The translations under genes and the position numbers were made by a program. From contig JAQVHY010000004.1 of the NCBI GenBank assembly GCA_028695935.1, positions 1 to 48,648 of the forward strand: 48,648 bases of DNA, read 5' to 3'. This document shows, piece by piece, positions 7,829-10,377 of the stretch (the stretch's first letter is position 1; every line of letters starts with the position of its first letter). Source of the DNA: Desulfobacca sp. GTDB taxonomy: Bacteria; Desulfobacterota; Desulfobaccia; Desulfobaccales; Desulfobaccaceae. The notes under the pieces were generated by a model. It was not told where the DNA came from, did no database searches, and saw only the letters and a program-made list of their open reading frames with translations.

Positions 7829-8881
7829 TCAAGCTTCAAGCCGTAATCGTCCACACCCGGACGCGGTTACTGCGCCGATACGGGCCGCCGCGGTTATCCC
7901 CGCCTGGTGCAGGCGTTCCAATAAAATATCAGCATGCTCCGGAGCCACGGCAATCAGTAATCCGCCATTGGTCTGGGCGTCACTGAAGATATCCACCAGC
8001 ATCGGATCGAGCCCCGGAGCAATACCAAGGCAAGGTTCGCAGAAACGGCGATTGGCGTGACTGCCCGCCGGCACCAGTCCCAGGGCGGCATATTCCCGGG
8101 CCGGGCCCAGGATCGGCACCTGGGCGGCATAAAACGTCAGTTCCACCTGGCTGGCCGCGGCCATCTCCAGGGCATGGCCGAGCAGCCCGAAGCCGGTAAT
8201 ATCGGTCAGGGCGTGGACCGTCAAGCCCGCCAGACATTCCGCGGCCTGCTGGTTCAGGGCCACCATGGTCTGAGTCATGGCGGCTTCGGCCTCCGGGGAA
8301 GCCAAGCGCCCTTTGAGGGCTGTAGAGATGATCCCGGTGCCTAACGGTTTGGTCAGCAGCAATTGATCACCGACCCGGGCCCCGGCGTTGGTCAGCACCT
8401 GGTCCGGATGCACTATGCCGGTAACGGCCAGGCCATATTTCAGTTCCGGGTCTTCGACGCTGTGACCGCCCAGCAAGAGCGCCCCGGCCTCATGAATTTT
8501 GTCCAGTCCCCCGGCCAGGATAGCCTGGAGGTCCTGCGGGGGCACGGTCTGCCGGGGATAGCAGACAATATTCAGGGCGGTGATCGGCCGGCCGCCCATG
8601 GCATAGATGTCACTCAAGGCATTGGCCGCCGCGATCTGGCCGAAGGTATAGGGATCATTGACAATCGGCGTAAAAAAATCCACCGTCTGAATCAGGGCGA
8701 GGTCCGGCGTCAACCGGAGGACGCCGGCGTCATCGGCCCCTTCCAGACCCACTAACAGGTCAGGATGCGCCTGTAGCGGCAAGCTTTTTAAGATTTCCTC
8801 CAATTCCCCGGGAGGAACCTTGGAAGCTCAGCCCGACGCCCGTACCTGTTCGACCAGAGGCAGCTTAGCCTGATCAGTCAT
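7829..8881 (-). CDS. selD: selenophosphate synthetase, itself a selenoprotein (in-frame TGA read as Sec)
   Basis: SelD makes selenophosphate, the selenium donor for selenocysteine and selenouridine. Counting only from ATG 8803 would remove the catalytic N-terminus. The same frame continues upstream through one TGA (8828-8830) to ATG 8881, which has an AAAGG ribosome site, giving 350 codons. The peptide around the TGA reads VRASG-U-ASK-VPPGELEEIL. It aligns with the E. coli loop holding Cys17 and Lys20, placing Sec at residue 18 and Lys at 21. Sec at this site is known in many SelD proteins. The body carries family motifs such as QTVDFFTPIVNDPYTFGQIAAANALSDIYAMGG. The gene follows the nitroreductase by 25 bases. 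Confidence 0.93.
8795..8830 (-). promoter_or_regulatory. selenocysteine UGA codon with bacterial SECIS-like hairpin
   Basis: Directly after the TGA (8830-8828) and a 10-base spacer, the mRNA can fold into a perfect 7-bp stem. UUCCUCC (8817-8811) pairs with GGAGGAA (8801-8795) around a 9-base loop CGGGGAAUU, and three more pairs are possible below a small bulge. Bacterial SECIS elements recruiting SelB-GTP-Sec-tRNA sit within the coding region at this distance from UGA and carry a G in the apical loop. The fit supports recoding, but I have not calculated the fold. Confidence 0.75.
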
Positions 8882-8906: not shown

Positions 8907-9476
8907 CTAAAAGCCCAGCCAGCGCACTTCCCGGTCTTTGCGAGGTACCACCGGCGGGGTTTTGCCCGGATAGCCGATAGGGGTAATCGCCAGTAGTTGC
9001 CGGTCTTCCTTACCCAGAAAAGACAGCAACTCGTTTTCCACATATAATACGCCGGTCATCCAGCAGGTCCCCAGACCTTCAGCTTCTGCAGCCAAAAGTA
9101 AATTTTGCATTAACGCCGCACCACTCTGGATCATATTTAGGCGATAAAAAGGATCTTCTTCTCGCCATACCGTTACCGCGATCACTACCGGCGCCCCTCC
9201 CAGGTTTTTAAAGAACTGGGCGGTAAATTTCTGCTGTTTTTCGCTAAACAATTTTTTGAGCAGGGGCATAACATGATCAATAGATTTGGCGCACAACGAC
9301 ACAAACTGGTCCCGGATCGAGCCGCTCATGACCGTTATTTCCCAAGGCTGTAAGTTGGTTCCGGAAGGGGCCCATAACCCGGCCTCAATCACCCGGGCCA
9401 GGACCTCCCGGGAGATGGCATCCGGTTTATAGAGCCGATGGCTCCGGCGGTTTTTAATGGCCTCATATACATCCAT
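8907..9476 (-). CDS. nitroreductase-family flavoprotein
   Basis: A 189-residue FMN-dependent nitroreductase-like protein. The N-terminal FMN phosphate motif is AIKNRRSHRLYKPD (about 6-19). This is followed by the active-site stretch LWAPSGTNLQPWEITVM (about 34-50) and the C-terminal GLGTCWMTG (about 134-142) and ITPIGYPGK (about 164-172) blocks. Such enzymes reduce nitro groups, quinones or flavins with NAD(P)H, and the physiological substrate is not predictable. The GGGAGGGGAAC site before ATG 9476 is strong. Likely co-transcribed with selD downstream; no known pathway link. Confidence 0.88.
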   Translation of the reverse strand: MDVYEAIKNRRSHRLYKPDAISREVLARVIEAGLWAPSGTNLQPWEITVMSGSIRDQFVSLCAKSIDHVMPLLKKLFSEKQQKFTAQFFKNLGGAPVVIAVTVWREEDPFYRLNMIQSGAALMQNLLLAAEAEGLGTCWMTGVLYVENELLSFLGKEDRQLLAITPIGYPGKTPPVVPRKDREVRWLGF

Positions 9477-9625: not shown

Positions 9626-9653
9626 TTGACATTACAGAATCAATGTTTATCCT
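9626..9653 (+). promoter_or_regulatory. candidate sigma-70 promoter for the EncFtn-like gene
   Basis: TTGACA (9626-9631), 16-base spacer, TATCCT (9648-9653) in the 263-base divergent gap between the nitroreductase and the ferritin-like gene. The -35 is a perfect match and the -10 matches 4 of 6. It predicts a leader of about 80 bases before ATG 9740. No clear Fur box was seen. Confidence 0.5.
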
Positions 9654-9739
9654 AAGAACAACTTGCCGCAATATCATTGGAACCAGGGTAGCATAATTAA
9701 TGTTTTGATAATTTACACACTAAAAATGGAGGGAGTACA

Positions 9740-10036
9740 ATGGGTTATGAAGGACATGGGGAACCTTTTGAGAAGCTGACCCCTAAAACCAGAGACCTGC
9801 GCCGGGCGATTCTATCGCTGATCGAAGAATTGGAGGCGGTAGAGTTTTATCAAGAACGGGTCGACGCCACCGAGGATGAGGCCCTGCGGAAAATTCTGGC
9901 CCATAATCGCGATGAGGAAAAGGAGCACGCCGCCATGATCCTGGAATGGATCCGGCGGCATGACGACCGCTTTGCCAAGGAATTGCAAACGTATCTGTTC
10001 ACTGACAAAGATATTACGGAGATCGAAGAGGATTAA
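9740..10036 (+). CDS. encapsulated-ferritin-like (EncFtn) ferroxidase
   Basis: A 98-residue two-helix protein. Its core closely resembles Rhodospirillum rubrum EncFtn as I remember it: EELEAVEFYQERVDA (29-43) and AHNRDEEKEHAAMILEWIRR (54-73), then LQTYLFT. EncFtn forms an annular decamer and builds a diiron ferroxidase centre between subunits. The known ligands Glu32, Glu62 and His65 correspond here to Glu30, Glu60 and His63, and the entry-site residues Glu31/Glu34 to Glu29/Glu32. All are present. The protein ends at about the point where encapsulin-targeted relatives continue into a C-terminal cargo peptide, and no encapsulin gene follows in this window. GGAGGG precedes the ATG. Confidence 0.85.
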   Translation: MGYEGHGEPFEKLTPKTRDLRRAILSLIEELEAVEFYQERVDATEDEALRKILAHNRDEEKEHAAMILEWIRRHDDRFAKELQTYLFTDKDITEIEED

Positions 10037-10188: not shown

Positions 10189-10377
10189 ATGGAACCCCAA
10201 AAAACCATGGTCTGTATGTGCGAGAACTGTGGGAGTGAAGGCGAAATGACTATCAAGTGCGAGGAAGTTATACCCCCGCAAGCTTCGCCGACCGCCGAAC
10301 CTCAGCCTCAGAAGGTGAAGCGGACCGTAGTTTGTACCCACTGCGGCAATGAAGCGGAAATGATTGTCGACCTGTAA
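10189..10377 (+). CDS. 62-residue protein with a duplicated zinc-ribbon half-site
   Basis: A small acidic protein made of two similar modules joined by a proline/glutamine linker. Module one has C11-x2-C14-G-S-E-G-E-M (plus C9 and C24); module two has C49-x2-C52-G-N-E-A-E-M. The spacing suggests one zinc or iron site formed by the two CxxC knuckles, or one site each. GGAGG precedes ATG 10189. It lies 152 bases after the EncFtn-like gene in the same direction, in the place where an encapsulin shell gene would normally sit. I do not recognise a named family; zinc-ribbon regulatory or metal-handling functions are guesses. Confidence 0.72.
   Translation: MEPQKTMVCMCENCGSEGEMTIKCEEVIPPQASPTAEPQPQKVKRTVVCTHCGNEAEMIVDL

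Follow-up and report, generated by a model that had tools for sequence, protein, structure and literature searches.

A tail-less EncFtn-family ferritin-like protein of Desulfobacca sp. belongs to a short form that occurs apart from encapsulin genes

Encapsulated ferritins (EncFtn) are cargo of encapsulin shells, and a homologue that carries no cargo tail and has no encapsulin gene beside it raises the question of whether it works without a shell. Such a gene lies at positions 9740–10036 (+) of the 48,648-nucleotide stretch of Desulfobacca sp. DNA analysed here (the window). The open reading frame has exact boundaries, starts with ATG and comprises 98 codons; a probable ribosome-binding site, GGAGGG (9728–9733, +), lies 6 bases upstream of the ATG, and its GGAGG block is kept in the two genus-mates of the host (G001 and G002). 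Purifying selection acts on it across the three genus members (dN 0.03–0.06 versus dS 0.45–0.80). The protein matches PF22277 (EncFtn-like) with 129.2 bits against a cut-off of 27 (E 4.9e-38), which places it in this superfamily, and TIGR04535 with 126.3 bits, barely above the cut-off of 125. The top match in a PDB sequence search was 3k6c (NE0167 of Nitrosomonas europaea, E 1e-32), followed by R. rubrum EncFtn. The score against NF058679, the M. xanthus EncB/EncC family, was 76.8 bits and thus under the family cut-off of 90 bits, and PF00210 (ferritin/bacterioferritin/Dps) gave no match to the protein at E 0.01. It is not a classical four-helix closed-cage ferritin; the protomer is of the EncFtn type, built of two long helices and one short helix.

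Residues E29, E30, E32, E60 and H63 align with E31, E32, E34, E62 and H65 of R. rubrum EncFtn, and Y37 corresponds to Tyr39. All six are invariant across 91 aligned relatives, so that both the ferroxidase residues (E32, E62, H65 and Y39 in R. rubrum numbering) and the entry site (E31/E34) are present. The full conservation of the ferroxidase residues claimed in the earlier note was therefore correct, including its residue numbers. At the site that corresponds to R. rubrum Trp38, the host protein has Phe36, G001 has Leu and G002 has Trp. An AlphaFold2 model of the monomer, built with 32 related sequences, had a mean pLDDT of 91.8 and predicted helices at residues 15–43, 47–74 and 76–85. Foldseek superimposed this model on R. 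rubrum EncFtn (5da5) with a target-normalised TM-score of 0.94 (rmsd 1.0–1.3 Å) and on 3k6c with a TM-score of 0.93 (rmsd 1.1 Å). The prediction covered the monomer only; since the likewise tail-less NE0167 is reported to be a decamer in crystals (3k6c; PMC11202242), the 98-aa protein may form a decamer as well.

The protein stops 11 residues past the sequence YLF, and the end near residue 98 without a cargo tail had been read correctly before. No targeting-peptide motif was found in any of the three frames between the EncFtn stop codon and the next gene, which rules out a tag hidden by frameshift or readthrough. The gene is followed not by an encapsulin gene, as had also been noted, but by a 62-aa zinc-ribbon-like open reading frame (+) and a trypsin/PDZ protease gene (−). 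The genome-wide search for an HK97-fold gene that the earlier note had suggested was carried out on the host genome (G000; 3.17 Mb, 201 contigs, 99.29% complete, not closed). PF04454 (family 1 encapsulin) matched nothing in G000, G001 or G002 and PF05065 (capsid) matched nothing in G000, while control genomes were matched in both cases; PF19307 (family 2 encapsulin) gave no match, but neither did it in the control genomes. Hence, neither of the marks of an encapsulin cargo (FLP-TP), a targeting peptide and an encapsulin gene adjacent or elsewhere, was detected.

To relate tail form to the presence of a shell, PF04454 was searched in 89 genomes, comprising 79 genomes of relatives, the three genus members and seven further genomes of the same phylum with an EncFtn match. 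The relatives were taken from the best 80 in the GTDB collection, which are 61–70% identical and belong mostly to Gamma- and Betaproteobacteria, while Acidobacteria and Aminicenantes contribute a few; in nearly all relatives the C-terminus lies 6–14 residues past YLF. Eighty-one genomes contained the tail-less form only, and none of these had an encapsulin. A longer-tailed form was present in seven genomes, namely those of Halochromatium (G070), Sulfuricella (G080), GSL.Bin27 (G106), two Acidobacteria gp5 (G091 and G092) and two members of the window's phylum (G161 and G196), and in all seven an encapsulin gene directly adjoined it (Fisher test for 7/0 versus 0/80, 1.7e-10, uncorrected for kinship and calculated before the tail-less-only tally reached 81). 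The tails of G070, G080, G106, G161 and G196 bear motifs such as LTLGSLK, LTVGAMK and SLGIGSLK, while that of G091 has no canonical motif and that of G092 is masked. At the Acidobacteria gp5 loci L078 and L112, EncFtn immediately precedes the encapsulin gene, and its 29-residue tail, which ends in TTGGRRWNG and has no canonical targeting peptide, overlaps the encapsulin start. G070, G080 and G106 possess a second, tail-less copy elsewhere, and encapsulin adjoins only the tailed one. G242, of the same phylum as the window, has a truncated EncFtn remnant only (locus L131) and no encapsulin. Because the shell gene and the packing tag are missing in the host and in the other tail-less-only genomes, proteins of the tail-less-only class, including that of the host, most probably work free in the cell. 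Of the two possibilities raised in the earlier note, a free EncFtn without a shell is thus the better supported, whereas a shell encoded elsewhere finds no counterpart in the PF04454 and PF05065 searches or in the 81 tail-less-only genomes.

The earlier note also implied an oddity, a lone cargo protein that had lost its shell. This was not borne out, as the tail-less form is a widespread and already named class (PMC11202242, PMC5012862). Short tail-less forms were termed 's-FLP' in a 2024 review, which treated them as possibly encapsulated and proposed that the short C-terminus might contain an undefined binding sequence (PMC11202242); He and co-workers (He et al., 2016; PMC5012862) had split off a related 'Non-EncFtn' group, and the two are apparently the same. 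With 98 aa, no targeting peptide and 3k6c as top match, the host protein is a member of this known class. It resembles NE0167 (3k6c) in length (98 versus 95 aa), fold, ferroxidase residues and lack of a targeting peptide, but identity is about 63%, the acidic C-terminus of the host copy is slightly longer (ITEIEED), and NE0167 comes from Proteobacteria whereas the host protein is found in Desulfobacterota-type relatives. With R. rubrum EncFtn (Rru_A0973, an FLP-TP; 5da5) it shares the fold, the ferroxidase site, the entry-site glutamates and Tyr39; the R. rubrum protein, however, has a long tail with a targeting peptide, which the host protein lacks, as its genome lacks an encapsulin, and Trp38 is replaced by Phe. 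To EncB/EncC of M. xanthus (NF058679) the likeness is that of a two-helix ferritin-like fold at the level of sequence profiles, but the host protein falls below the cut-off and has neither encapsulin nor targeting peptides. That tail-less forms and encapsulins part at the level of genomes, and that the tail-less gene has a place in rubrerythrin clusters (see below), appears to be unstated in the open-licence literature, although earlier reports may exist elsewhere.

Among 395 genomes of the window's phylum, which gene content and relatives indicate to be Desulfobacterota, nine carry EncFtn genes of close similarity, and this patchy distribution suggests horizontal transfer. In a tree based on only 87 columns, in which many forks were unresolved, the genus branch joined Aminicenantes-like sequences (support 97/73), and this group joined the tailed forms of the R. 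rubrum type (92/77). The Aminicenantes contig L032 and a contig titled Clostridiales (L034) have a common arrangement around the tail-less gene, with genes for a 366-aa protein and a NUDIX-like protein upstream; the MAG titled Clostridiales is probably misnamed or misbinned. Order-mates of the host carry instead a divergent EncB-like protein of 95–97 aa (MLSQIPIDLSKV...), which is likewise tail-less and lies below the family cut-off. Besides the order-mates, further genomes of the phylum have this second short family (L004–L027), which is nearly universal in family f2. PF04454 was found in none of 33 relatives tested, 26 of which are at least 90% complete.

Within the genus, the EncFtn gene lies between a divergently transcribed gene of the nitroreductase family (8907–9476, −; PF00881, 1.1e-35), whose syntenic counterparts in G001 and G002 share 92% identity with it, and the gene of the 62-aa protein (10189–10377, +), which has two CxxCGxExEM half-sites and syntenic counterparts as well (87% in G001, 82% in G002), with a dN/dS of about 0.08–0.12. 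No Pfam family, rubredoxin included, scored above cut-off with the 62-aa protein, and its PDB matches were dismissed as chance. As no terminator was found on the + strand between them, the two same-strand genes are possibly co-transcribed. The order of the three genes is fully syntenic within the genus, and the neighbours are absent outside it; the tie to the zinc-ribbon protein indicated in the earlier note holds as conserved synteny in the genus, but a zinc-ribbon partner as a general feature was ruled out because the gene is absent near all other relatives. A probable sigma-70 type promoter, TTGACA-N16-TATCCT, is located at 9626–9653 (+; 10/12 in the promoter scan), in a region that is among the longer intergenic blocks conserved in the three genus members. 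The spacer region of this promoter contains a short dyad, ACATT-N8-AATGT (9629–9646). As the window has a single copy of this dyad, and chance alone would yield about 0.7 matches when up to 2 mismatches are allowed, the idea of an operator regulon was dropped. Elsewhere in the window, the gene for SelD (selenide, water dikinase; 7829–8881, −) has an in-frame TGA at 8828–8830 in the context VRASG-U-ASK. SelD is therefore probably a selenoprotein itself, and the standard open reading frame call begins too late.

In some other lineages, the surroundings of the tail-less gene point to oxidative stress. At 11 of 80 loci (L033, L035, L036, L054, L055, L062, L068, L070, L079, L087 and L107) the gene belongs to a same-strand cluster with genes for DUF3501 and a CCG-domain Fe-S oxidoreductase; 10 of these 11 loci also include rubrerythrin. 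The RBR-RFO-DUF3501 set has been linked to oxidative stress in a study that makes no mention of encapsulin-type proteins (PMC5114695). In Sulfuricella, the tail-less copy is located inside a rubrerythrin/RFO/DUF3501 cluster and the tailed copy separately, together with the shell. The two commonest 'neighbour families' of the tail-less gene were discarded, as they were antisense reading frames over the gene itself. No PF12007 (DUF3501) protein was found in the host genus, and rubrerythrins are encoded elsewhere in the host genome. Each of the three genus genomes has two full-length rubrerythrin matches and one partial match, and none has a ferritin, bacterioferritin or Dps above the Pfam cut-off of PF00210. 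The sole weak PF00210 match in the genus is this same partial one, which lies within a larger protein with a cyclase-like domain (judged by eye). At positions 1525–2370 of locus L119 (contig C100 of G000), an N-terminal rubrerythrin-like segment is followed by an adenylate/guanylate cyclase-like domain, again judged by eye; matching segments are present in all three genus genomes, and the protein is a possible candidate for a di-iron sensor.

Family, fold and intact ferroxidase residues of the host protein are established, and so is the absence of tag and shell. We consider it reasonably probable that the protein acts as a free, ring-shaped EncFtn ferroxidase that detoxifies Fe(II) independently of a shell. 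The di-iron ferroxidase site would be made up by two chains, and the assembled protein would be an open decameric ring that is free in the cytoplasm. At a site like that of R. rubrum EncFtn, Fe(II) would be oxidised with O2 or H2O2, leaving less iron and peroxide for Fenton chemistry, and the role would be detoxification rather than large-scale storage. Without its shell, R. rubrum EncFtn acts as a ferroxidase but mineralises no iron, and Fe(III) precipitates in vitro (PMC5012862). Fe(III) set free by a ferroxidase outside a shell would precipitate likewise, which counts against this explanation, as does the exchange of Trp38 for Phe in the host copy. Moreover, the rubrerythrin/DUF3501 context is missing in the host genus and in most relatives, and hence a detoxifying role is proposed by analogy. 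A wider reading can be put forward more tentatively and seems to us rather doubtful: tail-less EncFtn proteins might constitute a large class with a function of its own, namely ring ferroxidases/peroxidases that serve the oxidative-stress response without a shell, have a conserved position in the rubrerythrin-RFO-DUF3501 cluster in some Proteobacteria and replace all classical ferritins in the host genus.

Instead of detoxifying iron, the ring might be a buffer or chaperone that binds and oxidises a little iron and passes it to an acceptor, be it Fe-S assembly or an unrecognised store, for example a ferrosome. The R. rubrum EncFtn decamer binds only about 10–15 irons (PMC5012862), and as none of the three genus genomes encodes a PF00210 protein above cut-off, some other protein may be required to handle iron. 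However, iron-transport or Fe-S assembly genes do not recur beside the tail-less gene at the 80 loci, where stress genes stand out most clearly among the recurrent neighbours, and we regard this role as unlikely. Clustering of the EncFtn gene with those for rubrerythrin and RFO, an Fe-S protein, in other lineages would also suit a rubrerythrin-like peroxidase fed with electrons by the adjoining two-half-site protein, which might bind iron in the manner of a rubredoxin. The gene for this 62-aa protein adjoins EncFtn in all three genus members, with both genes under purifying selection, but since the whole region is syntenic in the genus this adjacency is weak evidence. The protein scores below the cut-off of every rubredoxin family and is absent near all relatives outside the genus, which makes such a peroxidase quite improbable.

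Encapsulation after all would imply an encapsulin gene missed by the assembly, or an unrelated shell. The 201 contigs of the unclosed host assembly and the undefined binding sequence envisaged for the short C-terminus (PMC11202242) speak for it. Sampling gaps cannot explain, however, why three genus members and all 81 tail-less-only genomes are devoid of encapsulins, and where an encapsulin exists, it adjoins another, longer-tailed copy. The genome survey has largely refuted encapsulation, which we now hold to be very improbable.

The preferred reading, a shell-independent ferroxidase, raises the question of the fate of iron oxidised by an enzyme that has no store, notably in a genus without a recognised ferritin. 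The useful part of this case is the evidence for shell-independence. As the survey splits the two forms, with 81 tail-less-only genomes free of encapsulin and all seven tailed genes beside one, this separation leads to a claim open to test: a large subfamily of EncFtn would at no time make use of a shell.
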